Shown here one piece after another: positions 1-18,988 of a DNA stretch of 26,704 bases; the stretch's first letter is position 1; each line of letters opens with the position of its first letter. This DNA comes from a virus, in the IMG/VR virus record IMGVR_UViG_3300002514_000038, positions 1 to 26,704 of that record, one strand, 5' to 3'. The position numbers and the translations under genes were made by a program. The notes below the pieces were generated by a model. The model did no database searches and was not told the origin of the DNA. It saw only the letters and a program-made list of their open reading frames with translations.

Positions 1-3000
1 TGTGGTGACCCAGCAATGCTCTCATGCTTTTGGGGGTCTCAGTACTGTAGTGGAACCACTGGTAATATTTGCAATTTTGGACCAAGCCAACTATCCCCTT
101 ATCTATGTCAACAAAGTAATTCAGGACAATATCCGTGTCAAGCACCCCAAACAGAATATTGTTGTCATGCAGTTGATGGGTGTTTATCATACGTTGGTGC
201 TTATGTAGCAGGGTCCAATCCCATGACAACTGATGGAAATGGATGTGCTGCTTTTTACGGTACCAACCAAGCAGGATGTACAAGTGAATGTAATTTTGTA
301 TGTGGAGATTGTACACCACCATTAGGGGCATGTAATTGTACGTTTGTAAATGCCCCCGTAACTTGTGCCGCCCCTTATCCATTTACTAATATGGCAGATT
401 GTCATACATATCTAACAAGTCTTACTTTATTAGCTGACGCTGGGACATGTTGTGGATGTTATGATTGTTATAATGCTAGTCCTATATCCTTTTTGACATC
501 TACAGATGGAATAACCTGGATAACAACATCACAAGCAGTAACTCCACTATCTCAAGGGGCTTTACTGTGGGTTATGGGTCAATCATATGCAGTAGGAGAT
601 TTGGTTTCATCGTATGACTCCATCGACGGACCAGAATGTTGTTATGTATGTGTTTGGGATACAGCAGGTCTACCAGTAGGTAACCCACTAAATTGGAGTA
701 CTTCACCATACCTTTATTACCAAGCTTATGTTAATGATTTTAATAATAGCGTAGCTGTATGGCCAGGTGGCGGTAGTGGTAATTTAGTATGGATGCCATG
801 TGACCTAAGTTGTCCACCAGGTGTTGCAGTGACAACTTGGGACTGTATTCCAGGAACTCAATATGATGATTGTTCTCACAATACTTACGGAGGTCCTTAT
901 ACAATTATTAATCCAGCATTAACATTAACAGGGTCTTATGATGTATTAAATATGATATCTAATCCAGGTGGGTCTCCTAATTTACAAAGTGTAGATATAT
1001 TAACCCTTAAATTTCCTTATGGAGGTTTAATGCCCCCAAATCCTAATCCATGTCTACATAATGGGCTTCCTCTTGCTGTATTCGGTTCACCAATAACGAT
1101 AAATAGTACTATATACCTAAATTTAGGGCTAACAAGTGGGCCTTATAATTCATGGAATAGTATGATTAATGATTTAATATCAGTCAATCTAACAGATAGT
1201 AATGGCTCTGTAGTAAGCTTAGCTAATACTTATCCAGAAATATGTGACGCATTATGGTCCTCCTATGGTAGTATACCTTCATCTTGGGATAAATGTATAT
1301 ACGTTGGTCTAGACCCATGTAGTTGTACACAAGACCCATGTATTTGCCAATCTATATCTGGTCCAACAGGCGCTTTTAATAATCAGGGTGATTGTCAAGT
1401 AACTTTAACTAATTTACCTTGTTGTGGTTCTTGGACATGCCAAACAGGTTTTTGTGATTGTGTATTTGTACCAGATTATAAAGATGGATTTACTTCACAA
1501 ACAGAATGTTATAACGCAGCTAATTGTTGTGAAGTAGTATATCCAGAATATGATTGTGAACAAACCACAATAAGTACACCACCATATATTCAATGTGATT
1601 GTGTACAAGTAGGGGCAGGAATGGGAACATATCAAGGATTAAATGCATTATATAATTGTGAAAATGACCCATTTACGTGCTGTTCAGCCACTACCTTACC
1701 TGATAGATGGTGTTGTAGTAAAGATTGTCTTTGTATAGTTGACCCATATGGGCAATACAGTACATTAGATGAGTGTCACACAGCTGTAGCTCAGAATTGT
1801 TGTTATACAGGAAGCACTTCTTTATATGAATGTGTAACACATTGTAATGGTCCTTGTAGTTGTGTCCTCACTGCTACTGGTACCCACCAATCCCTTCATG
1901 ATTGTTTAACACAAGTAAATACATGCTGTTATACAGGATTAACTAGATGGGACTGTAAGTTGCAGGCTAACAATAGCTGTCTATGTATCCCAGCTCCTTT
2001 CGGATGGTATGCATCTCAAGGGGATTGTCAAAATAATATACCAGCCGCACCTGCAGGCGTCTGCCGGTGTGACTTGACTATAGCAGATAGGTGTAAGATA
2101 GAGTGTTTAGGAGCAACCCTCAACGTCACTTCATCACCTCATAGCGGTACGTATACCCCAACCACATATATTATGATACCTACATATGGTACTGATATGG
2201 GTATATGGACAAATACTGGTTACGGTTTATTTGATATGGTTGAAGACCCATATGACCATTGTTGTTATGTATTAACGCATGATGGTATGTTCCCTGCCGG
2301 CAGCCCACTAACTCAGTTTTCACCAAGTCAAATATTTCATAATCATATTAATGGGTTATATGCGGATGGGTCCAATGGTAGCGTATCTCCCGCTAATCCG
2401 ACACAAGCTCTACTACAAACTTTACAACTTAATAATAATATATGGTGGCCGTGTGATATACATTGTGTTAGTGTACCCGATGTTGGTTATGATTGTACTA
2501 ATTGTCCTGGAACGTGTGTATGTGTACTTAATAGTAGTTCATCAGCACAATACCAAGGACCTGGTGCATGGTTAGCATGTCTAGCTGCATGTGTGCAAGG
2601 GTGTGAGGATTGTGCAGTTACATTAGCTAGTTCATTAACAGGACCAATAGATTTTGAAGGAATATGGAATTCTTTATATGGATTTTATGATATAAATGAT
2701 TGTGTAACCGACCCACTAGATAAATGTTGTTATTGTTGTGTTGAAACAACTAATATAAATCCATGTACAAGATGGACACCACCAAAAAAGTGCCCAGTAG
2801 GAGAAACATGGCATCCATACCCAATTTGTAAATGTAAACCAAATATCTATCATATTATAAATAGCGGTGGAAAAGATAAAATATCCAAGAATAAAGGTTG
2901 GGGGATTAATAAATCCCTTGACCCGGAACCTTGTATTCAAAATATAAGCTGTTCACCAGGATATCATTGGGTAGGTAATCCAATTTGTGAGTGTGTACCA

Positions 3001-3879
3001 GACGCAGTTGGTTGTGATTCACACTATGGAAATCCATCTTTAAATATAGGAGTTAATCTTGGTAATAATGGGTCGTGGGAACCTTGTGGTATTAATGTAG
3101 ATAATCAACCATGCGGACCCCCTCAACCAGTAGATTGTAATAATTGTGATATTCATATGTCAACAGTATGGAATGCGCCTTTACCATTAAATTGGGTACA
3201 ATTCCCATTGATTACACAACATTTTTCTGAGGGTTGGTGTGTAACAGACCCTAATGATTTCTGTTGTTATTGTTGTGTAAAAAGACCAACACCAGTTGCT
3301 AATGGGGATGACACCCCAGGACTATGGATACAAGACCCTAATGGCCAAACAGCAAGCTGTGGTATATATATGACTGGGGCAACCTGGGAATTCTATGGTA
3401 ATCAACATTGGACTTTACATCCAGGAAATCCTGGTCCATACGGTGCAACTGTATGGGACTATGGTTGGGTAAGTTGTACCAGTAGTAGTCAGGTACCGTG
3501 TGGGAATCCACCAGTTCCAGAAAAGTGGTCATGTTTACTAACAAACCCCTTCTGGAGTATATGGAATTGTATACAAGATGGTATTGGTCCACACCCTGAC
3601 AAAGCAACTTGTTTAGCTGCTCAGTGCCCAGGACCTGTAGCTCCATGTGAACAATGTTGTGAATACTTGAAGCAAGATGGTTCGTACTTATATCAAAAAT
3701 TAGCATCAAATGCAAATCCTTGTGACTGTGAACATTGGCTTGGATTTTTATGGAATCCATCACCATGGGCTAATTGTTGTCAACCACAACAATGTCAACA
3801 AGGATGGTCATGGAGTGTAGCCCAATGTAAGTGTATACCACCTATTATGATAAATGATGATGGGTTTGGTCATGGATAA
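1..3879 (+). CDS. Giant cysteine-rich modular virion/adhesin protein (5' end outside window)
   Basis: The frame is open from base 1, so the ATG at 16 is probably internal and the true start lies upstream. At least 1292 codons are present. By eye it holds about 120 cysteines (9-10%), many as CC or CxC, plus abundant Asn, Gly, Pro, Trp and Tyr. Several module types recur: (A) CxCV...GxY...C...CC, most dense at 1336-2070 with outliers near 331 and 2515; (B) DPxDxCCYxC, near 2239, 2704 and 3241, with a looser copy near 622; (C) CxxGxxW....CxCxP, near 2788, 2950 and 3790. Two longer ~90-residue units (about 586-846 and 2197-2496) each end in W-x-PCD-x-x-C. Such density implies a disulfide-stabilised extracellular protein; no enzyme motif was seen. 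Lying just upstream of baseplate and fibre genes, it is probably a tail-tip or fibre component. A role is inferred; the family is not recognised. Its 3' end shows a frame break (see next entry). Confidence 0.85.
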   Translation, partial: CGDPAMLSCFWGSQYCSGTTGNICNFGPSQLSPYLCQQSNSGQYPCQAPQTEYCCHAVDGCLSYVGAYVAGSNPMTTDGNGCAAFYGTNQAGCTSECNFVCGDCTPPLGACNCTFVNAPVTCAAPYPFTNMADCHTYLTSLTLLADAGTCCGCYDCYNASPISFLTSTDGITWITTSQAVTPLSQGALLWVMGQSYAVGDLVSSYDSIDGPECCYVCVWDTAGLPVGNPLNWSTSPYLYYQAYVNDFNNSVAVWPGGGSGNLVWMPCDLSCPPGVAVTTWDCIPGTQYDDCSHNTYGGPYTIINPALTLTGSYDVLNMISNPGGSPNLQSVDILTLKFPYGGLMPPNPNPCLHNGLPLAVFGSPITINSTIYLNLGLTSGPYNSWNSMINDLISVNLTDSNGSVVSLANTYPEICDALWSSYGSIPSSWDKCIYVGLDPCSCTQDPCICQSISGPTGAFNNQGDCQVTLTNLPCCGSWTCQTGFCDCVFVPDYKDGFTSQTECYNAANCCEVVYPEYDCEQTTISTPPYIQCDCVQVGAGMGTYQGLNALYNCENDPFTCCSATTLPDRWCCSKDCLCIVDPYGQYSTLDECHTAVAQNCCYTGSTSLYECVTHCNGPCSCVLTATGTHQSLHDCLTQVNTCCYTGLTRWDCKLQANNSCLCIPAPFGWYASQGDCQNNIPAAPAGVCRCDLTIADRCKIECLGATLNVTSSPHSGTYTPTTYIMIPTYGTDMGIWTNTGYGLFDMVEDPYDHCCYVLTHDGMFPAGSPLTQFSPSQIFHNHINGLYADGSNGSVSPANPTQALLQTLQLNNNIWWPCDIHCVSVPDVGYDCTNCPGTCVCVLNSSSSAQYQGPGAWLACLAACVQGCEDCAVTLASSLTGPIDFEGIWNSLYGFYDINDCVTDPLDKCCYCCVETTNINPCTRWTPPKKCPVGETWHPYPICKCKPNIYHIINSGGKDKISKNKGWGINKSLDPEPCIQNISCSPGYHWVGNPICECVPDAVGCDSHYGNPSLNIGVNLGNNGSWEPCGINVDNQPCGPPQPVDCNNCDIHMSTVWNAPLPLNWVQFPLITQHFSEGWCVTDPNDFCCYCCVKRPTPVANGDDTPGLWIQDPNGQTASCGIYMTGATWEFYGNQHWTLHPGNPGPYGATVWDYGWVSCTSSSQVPCGNPPVPEKWSCLLTNPFWSIWNCIQDGIGPHPDKATCLAAQCPGPVAPCEQCCEYLKQDGSYLYQKLASNANPCDCEHWLGFLWNPSPWANCCQPQQCQQGWSWSVAQCKCIPPIMINDDGFGHG
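1336..2070 (+). repeat. Tandem array of about six Cys-rich type-A modules
   Basis: This part of the giant protein reads as about six consecutive units of roughly 35-45 residues. Each begins with CxC followed by V/I, then a short loop with G-x-Y/F/H, a Ser/Thr/Gln-rich turn, a single Cys, and a closing CC (CxC in the last copy), often followed by Y/W-x-C. CxC starts are at residues encoded near 1339, 1456, 1597, 1729, 1858 and 1984. Units differ strongly in sequence while Cys spacing is kept, which points to old duplications of a small disulfide fold and not to recent tandem duplication. Confidence 0.7.
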
Positions 3880-4025
3880 AATGTGACTGTGTTATGGGTG
3901 GAGAAAGACCTACTAAGTGTTTAAAATGTTGTGTAGATAATAGTACAGGAGCCCAGATTCAACTAAGTGAAAGTACAATACCATGTGTATGTCCACCTAA
4001 CACTACAGAAACTTTATGTTGGTAA
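3861..4025 (+). CDS. Cys-rich continuation of the upstream protein in the -1 frame (frame break or short separate gene)
   Basis: After the upstream frame stops at 3877-3879, the frame one base back is open from 3861 (stops at 3855-3860) to the TAA at 4023-4025. It encodes about 50 residues with 8 Cys in CxC, CLKCC and CVC arrangements, the same composition and spacing as the upstream modules; the KCLKCCV segment resembles the CCYxCCV of module B. A fused product would therefore read naturally. A separate gene could start at ATG 3894 (43 aa), but it would begin mid-module. No in-phase slippery heptamer is visible: GGGTTTG at 3862-3868 is one base out of phase for a classical X-XXY-YYZ slip. 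A one-base deletion, real or from assembly, is as likely as programmed frameshifting. Confidence 0.6.
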   Translation, partial: WVWSWIKCDCVMGGERPTKCLKCCVDNSTGAQIQLSESTIPCVCPPNTTETLCW

Positions 4026-4097
4026 AAAGAAAAAAATATTTTATTCACCACATATAATATAGAAATAAGTGTTATGATATTTATTATAAAATGAAGA
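4026..4097 (+). promoter_or_regulatory. AT-rich intergenic gap, possible promoter
   Basis: This is the longest gap in the window (72 bp), between the Cys-rich block and the next gene. It is almost entirely A/T and holds a TATAAT at 4053-4058 without a recognisable -35 element. No Rho-independent terminator hairpin and no Bacteroidota TAnnTTTG box are evident. It is a reasonable place for a transcription start of the following virion operon, but the sequence alone does not prove one. Confidence 0.2.
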
Positions 4098-4319
4098 ATG
4101 GCATTACATGAAGTAAAAGTGACGGGATGTATATTACCTTTAACTAAATTAGAGGTTTTAATGAACGTTTGTCAAAGACCAGAAACTAGGTCAAATATAT
4201 TTATTGAAAGAGGCAAAGTAACAGCTTTTGAAAAAGCCCAACGAATGGGACAAATAAATAGTACTGGAGAATTGGAATTACACGGATACGGTTACTATAA
4301 AATAGAAAAACAACCATAA
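4098..4319 (+). CDS. Hypothetical protein, 73 aa
   Basis: A short ORF starting ATG-GCA, followed 3 bp after its stop by the next gene, so the two are probably co-translated. The upstream ATG at 4091 is out of frame and stops after six codons, so 4098 is the plausible start. The protein is mixed-charge with no signal peptide, membrane segment or known motif; its middle has a basic stretch around RGKVTAFEKAQRMG and its end is Gly/Tyr-rich. It lies at the start of a run of virion genes, so a small structural or assembly role is possible. The family is not recognised. Confidence 0.7.
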   Translation: MALHEVKVTGCILPLTKLEVLMNVCQRPETRSNIFIERGKVTAFEKAQRMGQINSTGELELHGYGYYKIEKQP

Positions 4320-5248: not shown

Positions 5249-8200
5249 ATGGCTAGCAATCGATTTAGATATCCACCGGCCCCTAATCACGGAGGAGATA
5301 CCTTTAGTGATTTCCTAGTAGGAAATCAATTTATGGGGTCCCAGCAGATGACTTTAGGTAATTTTATAAATCTACCCAAGTCATCTTATAATATAACTTC
5401 TACATTACAATACAATATAGGTAGTTTTTCTACCCCTATAACATTAGAATCTTTAAATATAGATAACCTTAATTTAGCTCGTAAACTATCTAGTAATAAT
5501 TTAGAAGTTTTTGTTAATAATGATATAAGTGACATCTCAACCTTTGTTTTATACGGTTCCCTTAAAAAACGTTTATCTGTAGCAACTCAAAATGTCGTTA
5601 ATTTTTTTCCAGCAGCATTATTTGTTGATGGTGTAAATATTAATAATGTTTCTGGCAATACTACTGCTTATGATATATTATATAATTTAGCTACTAAAGA
5701 AACTACTTTTAAAACTAATGTTAATATAATATCTAATCCATTTAGTATAGAATTTACAACGAATGGAAATCAATTAAATGAACATATTAGTCAAGACCAG
5801 ATATTAAATAATTTTGAAACCTATGGAGTATCAGCAGATACTATCATAAAGATAGCAGAAGGAACAGTAGCTAAATTAAGAAATTTAACTAAAGAATTTA
5901 AAAAATATACATTAAGTTTTAGTGGGACAGTAGGAGAAACAGAGTATAAATTAATGAATGTTAAACCACAAACAGTTAATAATGATTACTTGGAAATTAT
6001 AGTTAAAGGAAATCCTTTTAATGTATCTACAACAGGTGGTACAGTAGTCACAACCACAACAGACCGTTTTTATATCAAACCAACCCAACAACAAACGGAA
6101 GAAGAATTTAAAAGATTTAAAAGTATAGAATCTTTTTTAGTTAATAGAGATATTTCTCCTATTTATACATCCACATTTAAAGTAATTAAAGAAAGTACTA
6201 GTGGTGTTAAATATTATGATAAAATAATTAAAACATGGCCATTAGAAGATAATGTAAATATTGATATAAGTAGTGACACTTATTTAACATATTTAACTGC
6301 TTTAGCGGATTTAGGTGATGAGATAGATATGGAAAAAACTAATTTGGTATCTCGCTTTTTAACAGCACCAGTACTAAAGGAGTTTGACGGAACAGACCAA
6401 AAAATTGAAAAAACTCTACAAATTTATGGTAGAAGTTTTGATGACATTAAAACATTTGTAGAAGGGATTGCATACATGACAAATGTTAGTTATGATGGAA
6501 AAAATAATATCCCTAATGAATTAATTAAGAATTTTGCACAGACTTTGGGGTGGTCCACCCCTAGTACTCTAAACAATACATCATTTTTAGATAGTGTATT
6601 AGGGGTAAATACACCACAATATTCAGGAACTAGTGTTTCAGCAACACCAACAGAATTGGATATTGAATTATATAGAAGAATATTACTTAATACTGCTTAT
6701 CTATTTAAGTCTAAAGGAACAAGAAAATCTATAGAATTTTTATTAGGTCTTTTAGGTGCTCCGGAAGCGTTGGTAGAATTTAATGAATATGTAGTTTTAG
6801 CAGATGCAAGAATTAAGATGAGTCCAGGGTTTAAATTTGAGTGGGCAGTTAAGGGCCGTATACCTTCCTATGTACCAGTACAAACTAAGTTTAATCAACA
6901 ATGGGAATTAATATCTGGGGGGTCTTATACTACGAGTACTTTAAACTATAGTATACCTTTTGCACAATTTTATATTTCTACTGGGACCACACAAAATCCA
7001 TTTACTCGTATAGATTACCCTATTGACGCAGCAGGATATCCTACTGTCCCTAGAGTAACTAACAATTACTTTTTCCAAAGAGGAGCTGGTTGGTTTGAAA
7101 GAACTGCAGAACATAAATCTGATATCTCTATAGACTTAAGTGCATCTACTCTTACAGGATGTACACCTAATGTAATAAATAAATTTAGTGAATTTACTTG
7201 GGGTGGTTTTTGGACTATGGGACAATATTCTAATTTATTGAAATGTCCATATTTAGATAGGTTTAGAAGATTCCCACACATGTCTTTTGGGTTTGGATTA
7301 ACGAGAATGATAGATGATAAAAAATCTTGGGTCCTTAAACAGGGAACCCAGTATAGAGATTATTCTTTTAATAACAGAGACGCATACTATCAAACAGATA
7401 ATGAGAAATTAGTATTAAACGTTAAAAATATAGACTTAAATTTAAATATAGGTCAAGGAATTACTTATGATATTTGGAAACAGTCAGCTCAATCAGATTG
7501 TTTTTTTAGCGGGGGGTCATTACCATTACCATATCCACATGTGGGAGGACAATGGGATTCCACCAACCCACAATTTAATGCAAAAACTATAGATTTTAAA
7601 ACATTTAAAGAACATTTTTGGAAAGTTTTTATTGACGCAAAAAATAGGATGACCATTAATGATGGAAAAACAGGAGGATACCCTACACTACAACAAATAT
7701 ATTTAGATTATTTACATACAAATTGTGGTGAAAATAATCAATACACTTATAATAAAATGATTGATTATGTACAATCCTTAGGGGATTATTGGGTAAAAAT
7801 AGTAGAACAAATGATACCAGCTACTACTCTATGGACGAGTGGTATGAAAGTACAAAATTCAGTATTCCATAGAGATAAGTTTGTTTATAGATGTTTTAGT
7901 GTAACAGGAACCAGTTTACAAAGCGTGTTAACTAGCACCCTATCGGTTTCTAGTAGTGCATTTACAGGATACCCAATCCCATTATTTAGTAATTCTGCAA
8001 GAATGATGGGAATGCCCACACCTCCACAACCAAACACTCCCTATTATAATAATTTATTAAATAATGAGAATCAAACTATACCATTATCGAGTTATGCAAA
8101 TTCTTATAATATTAATAATAAAGGAAGTATTTTTGGAAGTGCATTATTAGGTAAAGAAACTAATATATTAGCGGATAAATTTTATAGTAATAAAAAAGAA

Positions 8201-8425
8201 TTTACAGCCAAATCTATACATGTTAAAAAAGGTAGTACACATAATCTTTTGTGTGTTGATGGCCTTAAAGAATTAAATATAAGAGATTTAAAATGGTTAA
8301 AAAATTATAATTTAGGTGACGATAACGGTGAAACTGGTACAAATATAGTAATTCGTGGTGGAACCCCAGCACCTACCTCAGCGGCACCTGTAGTGTCAGC
8401 ACCAACAGGTGGGATGGGATATTAA
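5249..8425 (+). CDS. Baseplate wedge-like protein with P2 gpI-like domain, 1058 aa
   Basis: The clearest signal is a segment at about residues 375-520. It contains ELIKNFAQTLGW, then an acidic/aromatic stretch with ELYRRILLNTAYLFKSKGTR, in which the SKGTR motif is at residues 488-492, then a hydrophobic helix and LGAPE. This order (LA..LGW, E..RR, KGT, helix, LG) matches the phage tail protein I / P2 gpI baseplate family, where the protein lies at the outer baseplate wedge and helps attach fibres. The rest is beta-rich and Asn/Thr-rich, with a conserved-looking helical region near residues 830-875 (VEQMIPATTLW) and a low-complexity Ala/Pro/Thr/Gly tail. gpI proteins are normally about 180-200 aa, so here the domain is embedded in a far larger protein, of a size closer to T4 gp7. 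Baseplate location is well supported; exact equivalence is not. Confidence 0.75.
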   Translation: MASNRFRYPPAPNHGGDTFSDFLVGNQFMGSQQMTLGNFINLPKSSYNITSTLQYNIGSFSTPITLESLNIDNLNLARKLSSNNLEVFVNNDISDISTFVLYGSLKKRLSVATQNVVNFFPAALFVDGVNINNVSGNTTAYDILYNLATKETTFKTNVNIISNPFSIEFTTNGNQLNEHISQDQILNNFETYGVSADTIIKIAEGTVAKLRNLTKEFKKYTLSFSGTVGETEYKLMNVKPQTVNNDYLEIIVKGNPFNVSTTGGTVVTTTTDRFYIKPTQQQTEEEFKRFKSIESFLVNRDISPIYTSTFKVIKESTSGVKYYDKIIKTWPLEDNVNIDISSDTYLTYLTALADLGDEIDMEKTNLVSRFLTAPVLKEFDGTDQKIEKTLQIYGRSFDDIKTFVEGIAYMTNVSYDGKNNIPNELIKNFAQTLGWSTPSTLNNTSFLDSVLGVNTPQYSGTSVSATPTELDIELYRRILLNTAYLFKSKGTRKSIEFLLGLLGAPEALVEFNEYVVLADARIKMSPGFKFEWAVKGRIPSYVPVQTKFNQQWELISGGSYTTSTLNYSIPFAQFYISTGTTQNPFTRIDYPIDAAGYPTVPRVTNNYFFQRGAGWFERTAEHKSDISIDLSASTLTGCTPNVINKFSEFTWGGFWTMGQYSNLLKCPYLDRFRRFPHMSFGFGLTRMIDDKKSWVLKQGTQYRDYSFNNRDAYYQTDNEKLVLNVKNIDLNLNIGQGITYDIWKQSAQSDCFFSGGSLPLPYPHVGGQWDSTNPQFNAKTIDFKTFKEHFWKVFIDAKNRMTINDGKTGGYPTLQQIYLDYLHTNCGENNQYTYNKMIDYVQSLGDYWVKIVEQMIPATTLWTSGMKVQNSVFHRDKFVYRCFSVTGTSLQSVLTSTLSVSSSAFTGYPIPLFSNSARMMGMPTPPQPNTPYYNNLLNNENQTIPLSSYANSYNINNKGSIFGSALLGKETNILADKFYSNKKEFTAKSIHVKKGSTHNLLCVDGLKELNIRDLKWLKNYNLGDDNGETGTNIVIRGGTPAPTSAAPVVSAPTGGMGY

Positions 8426-8434
8426 AAAGTTAAA

Positions 8435-11400
8435 ATGACAAATAAAACTTATAATACAAATATAGACTTCAGAATATTGGGAGATAAGATAAAATTTTTA
8501 TTTTTTATTTCTAATACCGCAGATAATACAAGAAGTAAAACATACAATAAGGATAAATGTATGACTATTACTTTTGATACGGATATATTAGTAGAAGCAA
8601 TATGTTTGGTGAGTGAAGGCACTAGTGATAGAATGTTTTTAAGGTTCGATTCAAAAGGACTAAAGATAGAATCATATTTAAATATATTTGGGTGGAGAGA
8701 ATCAGATATAATTCTTGAGGTTTTTAAGAATAGTAAAGGTGTATTTGGGTTTGAAAGTGTTGTTGGTGGGGGATTTGGAGCTTTTTTATCTCACCCAAAC
8801 TACTTTTCTATTAAAACCCATAAAGCTACTAGTAGAGGTGTAGGAGCAATTAAACCATTTACCAATATGGTATTGAGCAAAAATCATGCTCTACAAATGA
8901 TATTTCCTGGAGCAAATTTAACTAAACAAGTATCTTTAGGTATATCTTTCGATATGGATATTCATATACAATCTGAAGGCCAATATGTTCAGTCGTTAGG
9001 ATTTAAATTAAACAAGGAAAATATAATAATTATAGAAGGAAATACCACCACTATATTACCACCAAAACAAATTATTAATACAACACCAAAGATAACGTTA
9101 GATACAACATATCTCTCATTAAATAATAGTGATTTAGCTTCAAGAAAAGTATTATATGATTACAAAAAAGTGTTAAAACCACAAAATGTAGATGCGTGCT
9201 CTTTAACTTTAATAGGTAGTAACGTTTATGCAATAAAAAATCCACAAAATTTGAATGTTAATTTAGAAGATATAAATTTAACTAAACACAATTTAATAGA
9301 AATACCATATAATATATCTAGAGAAATAGAAGATGGTAAAATAAAAGCCACTAAAAAGGTATTAAAAAATGGTAAAGCATTATATCCGTTAGGTTGGATA
9401 AATGAAATAAGAGATAATGAAATAGTATCCAGTGCAAATAAATGTATTTCCCTTAAATTTACTAGTAAAGAACAAATAATAGCATTTACTGAAAAATTAA
9501 AAAATCAACAGATAGGTAATATCGAGACTTACCCGACATACCATAAAGGTAGGGGAGCAAGGTTACCTAGAACATATGGAAGCATAACACAATGGGTTGA
9601 AAGAAGTAAATTAGATGAATTTAATGATGTAAAGTTTTCCTATGATGGTGACGGATATATAAAAAATATTTTAATTTGTCCTAGAAAGAAAACTAAAATA
9701 ACTAATAAATTTAAAGGTATTCAATGTGGACTATATAGTGACGGGACACAATATCTAACATTAGACGGCAAACCATATGAAGGAGATTTTCATATAGACC
9801 CAACACATGGAGCCGTAAGTGGGGCAGATAATACTGAACCAAAAAAACAATTATTAAATGAATTATATGGGTTTTCCCCAATTGGTGAAAATACCGCAAC
9901 AGATTTTTATCTAACAACATTTGGGAAAAAAGATGTAGGACTTTATAGTTCTTTTACTGCTAATAGTATATCAGTTAATGAACCTGATGAGACTTATGAT
10001 TTACGTATAAGTGGCTCAGGGTTTACCGCAACTAGTGCTACGACTGGCACCACCTGTATACCAATAAGTAATATAAATAGAACCAAAGTATTACCCATGA
10101 TTGGTGATATTAATAAACAATATAAACCCTATACTTTTAGTGAAGTATATTACAACAATAATGGTTCACTAACTTTGGATGATGCAGACCCCACGCATTA
10201 TATGACTTATACTGTAAGGAGTAGTGGTGTGTATAGATTTACTTATAAAGCGTATTTAGATATTAAGTATACGGACACGAAATGGTGTGATTATGTTGAT
10301 AGAATAGCCCCAAGTGGGGTTACTGCCACCACCGGTGTGTATCCACAAAATAATTATCAAACAAAAAGATTAATAAATACATCTATTATTAGAGCTGGTG
10401 ATGGTGAAACAAATACTATTTTACAAGATACTGGTTTTAAATTACATCCAGGGTATAGATATAAACGTAGTGGAGAAGTAGAAACCACACCAAGCAATAG
10501 CGGACTTTTAAATTTTGATTTTACTGCTTCTTTATTAAAGTATACTACTGGAACCACAGGAACTACTTCTGCAACCCCAGTTACCATAAAGACATTCAAA
10601 GTTCTAAGATGTAAAGAAGATGGTACGGCAGACAATTATTTAACTTTAGATGTTAGTGAAAATGATAAATTTTCTAACAATTATAATGTATGTACTATAG
10701 GGAGTGGTGTATCAGCTACCACTATATTTGGTAAACAAATTCCCGTTATTATCGATACAGGACTCATGAGTTTAACTAATGGGGATATTATAGAATTAGC
10801 ATATGATTTAAATTGGAATTCAACATCCAAAGGAAATTTTTATGGTGGTGGAGGAACTACAAACCTTACTATTAATCTAGGACACGAATTAGATACTACA
10901 GATACACCAATAGCATCTCCTTGGTACAGAGGAATAAAACTTTCTACTAAGGTAGTTAATAAAAATTTATTTTTTGATGCTACAAAAAAGTCTAAAGAGT
11001 TTAAAATGCAGGTAGGAGGAACCCAACAAACAATAATATTAGACGGAGCTTTATATATGTCGGACCAAGCGTGTGGAAATATAATAAGACCAACTATAAC
11101 CCCACAAACTTTTAGAAATCAAACTTTTTTAGATTCTACAGCCCCAAATAATGAATTAGTATGGGACCATCAATCACAAACACCAACAAATAATTGGCAA
11201 AATTTAATAGAAAATAATACCATAAAAGATTATACCTTATCTAGATGTTCTACGGACATATGTCCTCTTACTAAAATGCATAAAGATGGTGTATTTTGCT
11301 TCTATTTGCCGACATATAATGATGAATATGGAGCAAAATGTGATTTTACTTTTCCACAAATAGCCCAATCATATGTTATTGTAAATAAATTTAAGAATTT

Positions 11401-12190
11401 TTTTGGTGGTGAGTTGACACACTACATAGTAATTACTCCTGGATGTAATTTTTATAAACCATGTGCCCCCACTAAACTTAAGTCCGATTATGATATTTTA
11501 CATCAAACTAGACCTGATAGATGGAAGGTAGAAAATATAGGCAAAAAAATTACTATAAACGGAAAAGAAATAACAGTTATTTCAGATAAATCTACATATT
11601 ATGGTAAGCCATTAACGCTTCCCAATAAAACAATGTGCAAGTATTTTTGCGATTGTGGCCAAAATGTATCAGAACGATTAAATATAGACCCGATATACGG
11701 AATAAGTGGTGTGTTTACCGATTTAGAAGCTAATAATTGTGGAGAGTGTGTCACTAATTCTAGAATTCATTGTGCTAAAATAAATAAAGCGTGTAAACCA
11801 GTAATTATAGAAGACTGTACTGAATTAAGGGATTATGATGAGGTAACAACTGAATCGGGCATTCCAGTAAAGTTAAAAGGAAAAATATTAGCTGCAACAA
11901 CTACTGATGGGCCACCTACGAGTGAACCCGTTGTAGAGACTTTATATGGTTGTAATGAAGGAATATGTGTAGAAGACTCAGATGGAATGTACACAAATCT
12001 AGATAATTGTATAGCAAATTGTGAGTCACGCTCGTCAACCCCAAAAGGGGGAGAAGACGGGTCCGACCCAACCCAAGAAGAAGTAGATGACGGTGGAATA
12101 GATGAGGGAGCATGTATAGCTGGTTATTACTGGTGTGATTATATTGGAAGATGCATTTCAGTAGAGGAAAGATGTGGTGAATTAAAATAA
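8435..12190 (+). CDS. Large virion protein with Cys-rich C-terminal modules, 1251 aa
   Basis: The first ~1060 residues are mixed alpha/beta and Thr/Asn-rich, with no recognised enzymatic motif and few Cys; a TTGTTGTT-type Thr/Gly patch occurs at about residues 703-712. From about residue 1068 the composition changes: many Cys appear in CDC, CGEC and CxxxC arrangements. At about residues 1171-1196 there is a type-A-like unit (YGCNEGICVED, then G-x-Y-x-x-L-x-x-C-x-x-x-C), followed by an acidic Gly/Pro linker and a final C...GYYWC....RCI....C motif. The type-A unit resembles those of the giant Cys-rich protein at 1-3879. Position after the baseplate gene and before fibre genes suggests a distal tail or fibre-attachment protein. 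The family of the N-terminal part is not recognised. Confidence 0.75.
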   Translation: MTNKTYNTNIDFRILGDKIKFLFFISNTADNTRSKTYNKDKCMTITFDTDILVEAICLVSEGTSDRMFLRFDSKGLKIESYLNIFGWRESDIILEVFKNSKGVFGFESVVGGGFGAFLSHPNYFSIKTHKATSRGVGAIKPFTNMVLSKNHALQMIFPGANLTKQVSLGISFDMDIHIQSEGQYVQSLGFKLNKENIIIIEGNTTTILPPKQIINTTPKITLDTTYLSLNNSDLASRKVLYDYKKVLKPQNVDACSLTLIGSNVYAIKNPQNLNVNLEDINLTKHNLIEIPYNISREIEDGKIKATKKVLKNGKALYPLGWINEIRDNEIVSSANKCISLKFTSKEQIIAFTEKLKNQQIGNIETYPTYHKGRGARLPRTYGSITQWVERSKLDEFNDVKFSYDGDGYIKNILICPRKKTKITNKFKGIQCGLYSDGTQYLTLDGKPYEGDFHIDPTHGAVSGADNTEPKKQLLNELYGFSPIGENTATDFYLTTFGKKDVGLYSSFTANSISVNEPDETYDLRISGSGFTATSATTGTTCIPISNINRTKVLPMIGDINKQYKPYTFSEVYYNNNGSLTLDDADPTHYMTYTVRSSGVYRFTYKAYLDIKYTDTKWCDYVDRIAPSGVTATTGVYPQNNYQTKRLINTSIIRAGDGETNTILQDTGFKLHPGYRYKRSGEVETTPSNSGLLNFDFTASLLKYTTGTTGTTSATPVTIKTFKVLRCKEDGTADNYLTLDVSENDKFSNNYNVCTIGSGVSATTIFGKQIPVIIDTGLMSLTNGDIIELAYDLNWNSTSKGNFYGGGGTTNLTINLGHELDTTDTPIASPWYRGIKLSTKVVNKNLFFDATKKSKEFKMQVGGTQQTIILDGALYMSDQACGNIIRPTITPQTFRNQTFLDSTAPNNELVWDHQSQTPTNNWQNLIENNTIKDYTLSRCSTDICPLTKMHKDGVFCFYLPTYNDEYGAKCDFTFPQIAQSYVIVNKFKNFFGGELTHYIVITPGCNFYKPCAPTKLKSDYDILHQTRPDRWKVENIGKKITINGKEITVISDKSTYYGKPLTLPNKTMCKYFCDCGQNVSERLNIDPIYGISGVFTDLEANNCGECVTNSRIHCAKINKACKPVIIEDCTELRDYDEVTTESGIPVKLKGKILAATTTDGPPTSEPVVETLYGCNEGICVEDSDGMYTNLDNCIANCESRSSTPKGGEDGSDPTQEEVDDGGIDEGACIAGYYWCDYIGRCISVEERCGELK

Positions 12191-15794: not shown

Positions 15795-18203
15795 ATGAGT
15801 TATATAATTAAAGACAGTACACAAGGAGCGATAGTAGCTCGTCTAACCGACGCGGGTAGAAAAAAACTATCAGAAGGTAAACTAAATATCGGACTTTTTC
15901 AGTTAGGAGACAGTGAAGTTTGTTATGATTGTTATTCCCAATTACCAGCTACAGCTGCAGGGTTGAAGATATTACAGGCAGAACACAATGCACAAAATCT
16001 TAATCCGTTACCTGAAAAAAATAAAGGACATATTAAATACCCATTAGTGGGTGGGTTAAGTAGTGGGGCGACTTTTGGGCCAACTATACCACAGCATCAA
16101 CAAAATGAGGTTTATAATACTGCGACATCCAGAGGGTTTTTTACAGGAACAACAAATAACACTCCGAGTGGGTTAGGAAGTTATAGTAATTTTTCAGCTA
16201 ATACGGGTGGTAGATATACTCTATCTTCTAACTGGTTATTTTGTACTTCAGCAATGACAGGAGGGAGTCAGATGCTTTTACATAGTGCATTTACACAATG
16301 CTCAACTCAAGAATATACTCCAGTTATAGGAGACTTGTTATCAGTAACTTACGAATTTTCAGGAACAAGCTGTTCGGAATTAGATTCCACAGCTCCCTCA
16401 ACAACATTATTTTACCAAATATTAGCTGGTAATAGTAGCTCAACAGGGCCTTCTCCTTTATATGTGACAGTAGATAGAGCTTTACCTAATTTTAGTGCTG
16501 TAACGACACAAATGAATGCAGTATGTATGCATGTAAGAGTGTATCCAGCATTTTCAGCTAACCCTATGACTACATCTAGTATGTATAATACTGCAGGAAC
16601 AATTACATGTTGGTGTGATGAGACACTATCTTTTAATAATTGTTGTGACGTGTCTAATGCAGATGTAAAAATATGGAATATGAATATAAATTGGACGCAC
16701 CAAGTTGCAGGAGTATGGTCGGGTGGATTTGGTAATGATGAAGGTGTAGATAATTACGGCTCTAGTGGATACTGTGGTTCAAAAGAATACTTTGGGTTAG
16801 AGAGCAATAACGGACAATCTTTTAGTGAGCAAGTAACCGATTCTTATCATCCTACAGTTAAAGGTGGTACTTTCTATTTTGATTCATTTTATAATACTCG
16901 AGTAGTTTTACCAGAAGAACAAAAATGTGCTGGATTTATTCATTATACAAACAATTCGACAACCGATTTTTACGGAGAGAAATTTGCTATGAAAGATGAA
17001 GAATTAAATGATATAGGAGAAGCTAAGAATTTCAAATTACATTTACCTTGGTTAATGTGGCATAAGAAAAATGCTAATGGAACAGGTATTGGTAGTGGTG
17101 CTGGTAATGAGACTAAATTAGGACAGACTTTTTATGTGGACCCACAAAATATCTCAACCGTATTTCCTACTAATCCCAATATTATGTTATCTAATTTAAA
17201 TAATAATATGAATGATGACGGTCTAAGATATTGGCAGTTATATGATGATAATTGGGGAAGTGGAAGTACACCTAATAGAGTAGGGAAAGTATTTCCAGAC
17301 TATAAAATGGTTGTAATTGATGATGAAGAATTACTTGCAGCTATGTCTTATAAATCTAATAGAAGTTGGACTCTACCCGCACCAAAAACACAAAAATTTC
17401 CAGCGGGAACCGGTTGTCCAACAGGATGTACCACGGGAGCAATACAAAATCCAGGAACGACTTTATGGATGACCTATATGTTCCTTAATAAGGTAGCTGG
17501 TAGTGCAGGTGTAACAACAGGACTTCACTGTAACTACTATGTAAGTGAAACTCTACAACCGTTAGAAACACCATTTGACCTTGGATTTACATTAGGACCG
17601 GAATTTCCGTATTTAAGAGATGATTTTTCAGTTACTGGTACAGGTTGGGAAGCGGACACTCTATATATTTTAACACAAAAAGTACCTAACGGGACAACAT
17701 TGAGTCCACACGGTTGGGGTTATACAGATGTAACCGCTAAAATACCTGGTCATACTGTAGGTAATAAAATATCTGCAGCGAGTATAATAAATCATACTTT
17801 TTATTTGACAGGTAATGAGTTAGACCCCGGATGTTGTAGTGGATGTACACCAACACCTTATCATTTAAATACTTTCATAGACATTCCCGCGAGTACTGGT
17901 GAAGAGAGCTACTTACAATTTGGGGATGAATATTTTTTCTATGGTAGTTTAGAGACTGATATAACAGCAACTATTTACGAAATGAAACATGTGGTACAAT
18001 TAGGACAAAACCAATATACAACCTCTACAAATCCAACCTGGGTAGATTATACAACCAATACCGGCCCTACAAATCCGCGAATAACCGAAATTGGTTTATA
18101 TGATAATGAGAACGGATTCCCAGACTTAATGGCTATTGCAAAATTGCAGTCACCTGTTGAAAGAACAAGTACTCAGCAATTTACAATATCTATTGATTTT
18201 TAA
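15795..18203 (+). CDS. Baseplate-attached fibre protein (adaptor domain + EIGLYD cap), 802 aa
   Basis: The N-terminus (residues 1-50) contains LTDAGRKKLSEG...FQLGDSEVCYD, an adaptor pattern that recurs in the next two genes and resembles the N-termini of phage fibres that dock on the baseplate. The large middle is beta-rich with scattered Cys. From about residue 495 comes RVGKVFPD...VVIDDEEL, then MSYKSNR. The last 40 residues (763-802) read ITEIGLYD...LMAIAKL...PVERTSTQQFTISIDF, a cap shared with the fibre gene at 21351. The stop overlaps the next ATG by one base (TAATG), indicating translational coupling. A receptor-binding or side-fibre role is inferred. The gap before it (15762-15794) holds a 12-bp perfect palindrome at 15773-15784. 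Confidence 0.75.
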   Translation: MSYIIKDSTQGAIVARLTDAGRKKLSEGKLNIGLFQLGDSEVCYDCYSQLPATAAGLKILQAEHNAQNLNPLPEKNKGHIKYPLVGGLSSGATFGPTIPQHQQNEVYNTATSRGFFTGTTNNTPSGLGSYSNFSANTGGRYTLSSNWLFCTSAMTGGSQMLLHSAFTQCSTQEYTPVIGDLLSVTYEFSGTSCSELDSTAPSTTLFYQILAGNSSSTGPSPLYVTVDRALPNFSAVTTQMNAVCMHVRVYPAFSANPMTTSSMYNTAGTITCWCDETLSFNNCCDVSNADVKIWNMNINWTHQVAGVWSGGFGNDEGVDNYGSSGYCGSKEYFGLESNNGQSFSEQVTDSYHPTVKGGTFYFDSFYNTRVVLPEEQKCAGFIHYTNNSTTDFYGEKFAMKDEELNDIGEAKNFKLHLPWLMWHKKNANGTGIGSGAGNETKLGQTFYVDPQNISTVFPTNPNIMLSNLNNNMNDDGLRYWQLYDDNWGSGSTPNRVGKVFPDYKMVVIDDEELLAAMSYKSNRSWTLPAPKTQKFPAGTGCPTGCTTGAIQNPGTTLWMTYMFLNKVAGSAGVTTGLHCNYYVSETLQPLETPFDLGFTLGPEFPYLRDDFSVTGTGWEADTLYILTQKVPNGTTLSPHGWGYTDVTAKIPGHTVGNKISAASIINHTFYLTGNELDPGCCSGCTPTPYHLNTFIDIPASTGEESYLQFGDEYFFYGSLETDITATIYEMKHVVQLGQNQYTTSTNPTWVDYTTNTGPTNPRITEIGLYDNENGFPDLMAIAKLQSPVERTSTQQFTISIDF

Positions 18204-18988
18204 TGGGTTATTTAGAAATTTATAATAATAATTTATCTGGTAATACATTTAGGATGTACTTATCTGATTATGGTAAAAGTAGATTAGCATTAGGAAATGG
18301 AGTATTAGATGAGATTCAAAAATTTGGATTAGGAGATTTAGATATTGATTATCGTAGATTTGTCGGGAGTGGAGAGTGTAGAGACCAAACAGGATTAAGT
18401 GCTTTAACTGGTTCTTGTTTTTTTGACCTACCGGATGCAAGAGGTGGTGAACCTAGTTATACGAAAGGGGCATATAATGTAATACCATCTATATTTAGAG
18501 GGGCTAGAATTACAATGCAAAGTAATGTACCCTATCTTTATAATACTTCATTAGGAGTAAATCCAACCAACACTACAACACTATGGGCTAAACATAAGGA
18601 AAAAGAGACCGTAACTGATATAGAGGAACCAAATAGTGGAGATTATAATACGTGTTGGTTAGTGGGAGATAGTGTTACAAGATTTTATCCAGCATATTGT
18701 ATTGTTTGTGCTGATTTTAATGGTGATGGTAGGGTTGATATGGATGATTTAAAGATATTTTTAAGTTTGATGGGAGCCAACGCGACAAAAGGAAGTGACC
18801 AATTGATAGGGGATTTTAATGGGGACGGAAAAGTAGATAAAAAAGATTTAATGATTTTTATAGATTGTTTGAGATACAATAATGTAAATATATTAAATCT
18901 TTGCCAAGATAAAGAAATTTATTGTTTACTATGTAAACATTTGGGTACAGATTCACCATGTGGCGGTGATTGTTTAAAATGTATATAA
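18203..18988 (+). CDS. Adaptor-domain fibre protein with dockerin-like double Ca-loop, 261 aa
   Basis: Residues about 18-51 repeat the adaptor pattern of its neighbours (LSDYGKSRLALG...FGLGDLDIDYRR). The central part is beta-like. Residues 171-182 (DFNGDGRVDMDD) and 204-215 (DFNGDGKVDKKD) are two near-identical calcium-loop motifs, each followed by a hydrophobic helix start (LKIFL, LMIFI). Their spacing and form are those of a type I dockerin, which in cellulosomes binds cohesin domains in a Ca-dependent way. The C-terminus ends in a short Cys cluster (CLLCK...CGGDCLKC). It starts on the last base of the preceding stop. The domain resemblance is strong; no cohesin partner is visible in the window, so the loops might serve only as a Ca-stabilised fold. 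Confidence 0.75.
   Translation: MGYLEIYNNNLSGNTFRMYLSDYGKSRLALGNGVLDEIQKFGLGDLDIDYRRFVGSGECRDQTGLSALTGSCFFDLPDARGGEPSYTKGAYNVIPSIFRGARITMQSNVPYLYNTSLGVNPTNTTTLWAKHKEKETVTDIEEPNSGDYNTCWLVGDSVTRFYPAYCIVCADFNGDGRVDMDDLKIFLSLMGANATKGSDQLIGDFNGDGKVDKKDLMIFIDCLRYNNVNILNLCQDKEIYCLLCKHLGTDSPCGGDCLKCI

Follow-up and report, generated by a model that had tools for sequence, protein, structure and literature searches.

A giant cysteine-rich protein from a contractile-tail baseplate cluster of uncultured phages, probably a disulfide-stapled host-binding tail fibre

The stretch of DNA analysed here (the window, 26,704 nucleotides) corresponds to bases 1-26704 of the 50,482-base linear virus record IMGVR_UViG_3300002514_000038, and it opens with a plus-strand open reading frame (ORF), 1-3879, that codes for an unusually cysteine-rich protein. 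The first-pass annotation, made from the letters alone, had called its content of some 120 cysteines (Cys) in roughly 1290 residues extreme, and the count agrees, with 125 Cys in 1292 residues (9.7%). The Cys content of most other ORFs in the window lies between 0.5 and 2.7%; ORF 18203-18988, at 4.6%, stands apart. Since the window begins at base 1 of the record, ORF 1-3879 is cut by the contig edge and its 5' end is open; its relatives show that the full protein is far longer, ORF 1-3879 covering the C-terminal ~45% of it.

These relatives were found in IMG/VR using the 1058-aa neighbour (5249-8425) as the query, a scan of viral sequences that used only the window protein having remained empty because the peptide patterns of that protein are too specific, and profile-guided scans enlarged the set of homologues to 45 contigs. 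The first three relatives carry a complete homologue at the same place, of ~2900-3000 aa with 246-255 Cys, to which the window part is 47-52% identical (local match); its overall identity to the complete homologue of relative L011 (2902 aa) is 51%. The complete giants as a whole comprise 2558-2991 aa and 195-255 Cys (7.4-8.6% Cys). The window protein matched no family in Pfam, PHROGs, NCBIfam or the PDB sequences, a tblastn search of ~50,000 phage records with the giant gave zero matches, and no description of this family was found in literature searches. As far as these sequences indicate, the family is carried by phages and is known from environmental sequence collections only. The homologue contigs, together with the recurring modules described below, bear out the phage origin and modular build that had been proposed for the protein.

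Three module types, A, B and C, had been described as recurring along the protein, and each does so far above shuffled expectation: a strict 6-Cys regular expression for A, the B motif and motif C have 3 occurrences apiece, compared to 0.02 in shuffles. Each A module is ~35-45 residues long and has at most six Cys, and the A profile identifies 6 contiguous tandem copies and 1-2 more in the window protein (Table 1). The strict form DPxDxCCYxC given for module B recurs only in part, at 2 sites (residues 904 and 1083), the others (209 and 749) being variants of it. The assertion that no described family has this make-up holds for modules A and C and for the giant assembly, which match nothing in the libraries searched, but not for module B, which looks CBM5/12-like, nor for the N-terminal core seen in the relatives, which looks PKD-like. 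In the alignment, relative L015 lacks the part that contains the first two C copies, Cys included.

The Cys of the giant are conserved well beyond the rest of the chain. Across the window region, 107 of the 125 Cys (86%) are invariant in four sequences (the window copy and three relatives ~50% identical to it), the next most invariant residue being Trp, at 44%, and in an alignment of 17 giants, Cys makes up at least 90% of 170 of the 274 Cys columns. Where a conserved Cys is substituted, a partner 4-45 aa away in the same protein is lost as well in 16 of 38 events, against 5.0 expected (p = 0.0004, each Cys column counted once), while the same test has no effect for Gly, Pro, Trp, Tyr, Asp or Asn. 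The losses fall into 14 single ones, 8 clusters of two, 1 of three and 1 of five. In addition, module A exists both in the 6-Cys form and in a 4-Cys form, the latter being seen in distant members as well as C-terminally in the products of ORF 8435-12190 and its homologues. Metal binding had been offered as an alternative. In such a protein, Cys clusters would hold Zn or Fe-S, either in the cytoplasm or in the virion, and high Cys conservation would also be seen for metal ligands. However, CxxC is not enriched (7 observed vs 9.8 expected), CxC is and CC leans up, the clustered losses are mostly in twos, not fours, none of the Pfam metal-binding domains matched the giants, and Lys and Arg together make up 2.2% of the ORF 1-3879 product, which makes this alternative highly improbable. 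Because of the Cys conservation, the paired loss, the two forms of module A and the lack of CxxC enrichment, the sequences favour disulfides over metal sites, in keeping with the disulfide-type modules first proposed: the Cys appear to behave as disulfide partners.

Module B follows the pattern W-x5-Y-x2-GD-x-V...CCY...W-x-x-C (alignment A8), in which the core signature of CBM5/12 with its closing Trp is present (Y7 and W44 invariant; W1, D11 and V13 at least 90%). The Pfam model CBM_5_12 (PF02839) matches 8 of 29 B copies, with a best E of 9.9e-5. A search of the PDB with the B profile gave chitin oligosaccharide deacetylase and related NodB-domain proteins as its best matches (E 0.04-0.1), which fall on the W...Y..GD.V segments, and a Foldseek search with a moderate model of B placed chitinase B and a chitin-binding domain among the top matches, none of them significant (E of at least 4). 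Module B appears to be a CBM5/12 (chitin-binding) relative that is stapled by Cys.

Table 1 Features of ORF 1-3879 and of the bases that follow it
Feature	Position	Strand	Basis
A-like module (CxC...C...CCxC), upstream of B1	331..468, end approximate	+	alignment A5, main Cys invariant in 16 homologues
Module B1, CBM5/12-like	568..801	+	alignment A8, CBM_5_12 matches, PDB profile search
Module A, tandem copy 1	1318..1428	+	profile match
Module A, tandem copy 2	1432..1533	+	profile match
Module A, tandem copy 3	1549..1686	+	profile match
Module A, tandem copy 4	1708..1806	+	profile match
Module A, tandem copy 5	1825..1932	+	profile match, E 2e-11
Module A, tandem copy 6; CRCD in place of relatives' NCC	1948..2070	+	profile match, alignment
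Module B2 (DPYDHCCY ... WWPC)	2206..2454, boundaries approximate	+	motif, alignment A1
Module A, copy 7	2488..2616	+	profile match
Module B3 core (DPLDKCCYCC)	2665..2739	+	motif, alignment A1
Module C, copy 1 (CPVGETW...CKCKP)	2791..2841	+	motif
Module C, copy 2 (CSPGYHW...CECVP)	2950..3000	+	motif
Module B4 (DPNDFCCYCC ... YGWVSC)	3190..3477, boundaries approximate	+	motif, alignment A1
Degenerate A-like module (WSC...NC...C...C..C..CC)	3526..3663	+	weak profile match, alignment A1
Module C, copy 3 (CQQGWSW...CKCIP)	3793..3840	+	motif
Cys-rich tail in another frame, past the stop (WVWSWIKCDCV...CVCPPNTTETLCW)	3861..4025	+	translation, blastp
73-aa ORF, homologous to the C-terminal domain of the smaller members' second Cys-rich protein	4098..4319	+	phmmer

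The conserved N-terminal core appears PKD-like; it lies outside the window. The first 500 residues of L011 model in this way, and in Foldseek the core model matches the PKD1 domain 6aem (E 5.7e-3, probability 1.00, template-modelling score 0.66 over the target) as well as an uncultured-phage PKD protein (E 2e-15). A core homologue in UniProt, A0A6J5L9U6, is entered as "PKD domain-containing protein [uncultured Caudovirales phage]".

The gene neighbourhood places the giant gene among tail genes. On its upstream side the relatives carry gp25 (phrog_261/43) and a baseplate wedge similar to gp6 (phrog_219/6), as well as proteins of ~1200 aa (31-40 Cys), ~600 aa and ~300 aa; downstream there is a ~210-aa gene in close relatives, followed by proteins of ~306, ~1055 and ~1250-1345 aa. 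This order is the same in the giant-bearing phages and in distant clades with smaller members of the family. The giant gene belongs to a contractile-tail baseplate cluster, as seen in every relative whose neighbours were read, and nothing points to the sheath identity that the first-pass annotation had raised alongside a fibre. The gp6-like protein shares 26-29% identity with baseplate wedges of Microcystis phage Mel-JY01, Flavobacterium Immutovirus and a 484-kb phage that is uncultured; no Cys-rich giant lies in their baseplate regions. The two cultured ones do have baseplate genes at that place. That the gene keeps its place so tightly, after the gp6-like gene and ahead of the later tail genes across diverse clades, also bears on whether the giant could be a non-virion extracellular or surface protein freed at lysis (a decoy, a polysaccharide binder or a superinfection factor) that stands among baseplate genes by chance. 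PKD, CBM5/12 and the Cys-repeat style do resemble secreted bacterial proteins, but given this gene order, and with no signal peptide seen by eye at the N-terminus of the complete homologues (MEVYKYRIKR...), we consider such a role quite unlikely.

A different use of the disulfides within the tail also deserves attention, namely that bonds between chains cross-link the baseplate and keep the tail extended until a reducing cue at the host triggers contraction. This has a precedent in Agrobacterium phage Milano, where a disulfide network in sheath and baseplate must be reduced before contraction (PMC10811340), and the cluster neighbours of the giant are enriched in Cys too (the ~1200-aa protein mentioned above and, in the window, a 1251-aa protein with 33 Cys). 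Within the giant, however, the Cys belong to small repeating modules and disappear in neighbouring pairs, which is what intra-domain bonds would give, and the gp25 and gp6 homologues are almost devoid of Cys, so that a lock of this kind seems unlikely.

Some of the neighbouring proteins are of interest in themselves. The ~1200-aa baseplate-cluster protein (L011:13846-17466 and homologues), with ~35 Cys and no family match, is a candidate disulfide-bearing tail protein. The 1251-aa product of ORF 8435-12190 has a C-terminal 4-Cys A-type module (YGCNEGICV...C...C) and a second 4-Cys motif (C.AGYYWC...GRCI....C) which by eye is LDL-receptor-A-like, both being conserved in homologues. ORF 18203-18988, in the tail region, codes for 261 aa with a dockerin/EF-hand pair (PF00404, E 1.3e-7), and weak EF-hand or dockerin-like repeats are found in some smaller members of the giant family.

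The true C-terminus of the window copy is uncertain, since a Cys-rich stretch runs on past the stop in another frame. This tail resembles the C-terminal modules of relatives (blastp E 5e-5 to L034 and 5e-4 to L036), and the frame change near 3860 (region 3855-4025) would be an indel, either in the phage or in the assembly; by eye, no canonical slippery site stands in the required register. A tblastn search of the 50-kb record, 4025-4098 included, did not find the ~210-aa gene that comes after the giant in L004, L005 and L006. Given both observations, the 3' end of the window copy may have suffered damage or misassembly, and one might go further and take the whole frame for an artefact or pseudogene, that is, a chance open frame or a gene broken in this phage. 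The frame of 2558-2991 aa is intact, however, in about a dozen uncultured phage contigs and its conservation is biased towards Cys, by which this explanation is largely refuted at the family level; we give it almost no credence.

In a tree of the N-terminal core, all giants form one clade (support 100/99). The members outside it have 540-1253 aa and 3-6.4% Cys. These smaller members (L057-L074) share with the giants the operon position and the N-terminal core, and several have a single B and some have 4-Cys A modules; they differ in being shorter, poorer in Cys, outside the giant clade and followed by a second Cys-rich gene. The ORF at 4098-4319 of the window matches the second proteins of L057, L061, L062, L064, L066 and L068 (phmmer E 2e-19 to 3e-28), and because it is homologous to their C-terminal domain, the Cys-rich mass is split differently between the clades. 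The second proteins of L057, L062, L064, L066 and L068 are rich in repeats of the type GCxDPxAxNYNPxAxxDDGSC. As the tree was rooted at its midpoint, growth of the giant clade by module gain is something that we only infer. An origin by fusion of a small PKD protein with the second Cys-rich protein is not claimed, the giant profile having no convincing match to the latter.

Disulfides are unusual in phage structural proteins, since these are synthesised in a reducing cytoplasm. The giant is unlike any described phage protein and is probably a disulfide-stapled host-binding tail fibre; more precisely, we take it with moderate confidence for a glycan-binding tail fibre (or adhesin) that a contractile-tailed phage carries on its baseplate and that disulfides lock after lysis. 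We infer its presence in the virion, its oxidised state, the timing of the oxidation and the binding of glycans. The PKD-like N-terminal region would probably anchor the chain to the baseplate, the A modules could act as rigid disulfide-stapled spacers, and the CBM5/12-like B modules would be glycan-binding units that engage host-surface polysaccharide. As the complete homologues have no evident signal peptide, synthesis probably takes place in the cytoplasm, with the chain in the reduced state, followed by assembly into the baseplate; lysis would then expose the ~250 Cys to oxygen and let them pair, giving a fibre resistant to proteases and shear.

Several results weigh against this proposal. 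Two scans of bacterial and archaeal genomes gave no match, hence no prophage or host link. The PF02839 scores printed for module B (12.6-19.2 bits) were all below the curated cut-off of 26.2, none above it being seen, and PKD_4 reached 18.8 and 18.3 bits (L057 and L064; Pfam E 0.002) against a cut-off of 27, while the AlphaFold models are moderate (mean pLDDT, the predicted local distance difference test, 65-66, with 65 for the N-terminal 500 residues of L011). Some of the paired losses involve Cys just two residues apart, which are unlikely to be mutual partners, and such pairs were left out of a second paired-loss test. A search of 16 related records, many of which are fragments, yielded no Erv/ALR-type oxidase, and the glutaredoxin-like genes seen in 10 of the 16 more probably act as reductants for ribonucleotide reductase. 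Separately from these points, L002:6589-6927 (record bases ~33188-33526) encodes a small protein that looks thioredoxin-like and has a CPTC motif (by eye).

More tentatively, the giant could represent a class of fibre that folds to completion outside the host, as a ~2,900-residue chain with ~120 disulfides that can form only after lysis and to which lineages add, or from which they remove, modules; we regard this as possible rather than probable. If true, the host-binding apparatus of the virion would mature by environmental oxidation. With a widespread family in which one protein has ~250 conserved Cys, post-lysis oxidative maturation of virions would become directly testable. The family also offers two library-unmatched module types (A and C) and a Cys-stapled CBM5/12-like scaffold, and for a group of uncultured phages it provides a concrete candidate for the apparatus that binds receptors.

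Among known systems, module B shares with CBM5/12 (PF02839; chitinase B of Serratia) the W-x5-Y-x2-GD-x-V core, and sequence and profile searches lean in that direction, as do the non-significant fold matches, but it differs by an added CC pair, the W-x-x-C staple, a longer insert and scores that stay below the curated cut-off. Likewise, the conserved N-terminal core resembles PKD domains (PF18911/PF00801) and A0A6J5L9U6, from which the giants differ by ~2000 extra residues of Cys-rich modules and by sequence matches below the cut-off. By analogy, the nearest functional precedent for disulfide-locked tails is Milano, likewise a contractile-tail phage, in which disulfides covalently stabilise the virion proteins; the phage tblastn search found no sequence relation between Milano and the giant. 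The two also differ in how the Cys are deployed. Milano has extensive inter-subunit bonds in sheath and baseplate, and the 2.1% Cys of its structural proteins was noted as high next to T4 (0.9%) and A511 (0.7%) (PMC10811340), whereas here 7.4-8.6% Cys is concentrated in one chain of 2600-3000 aa.

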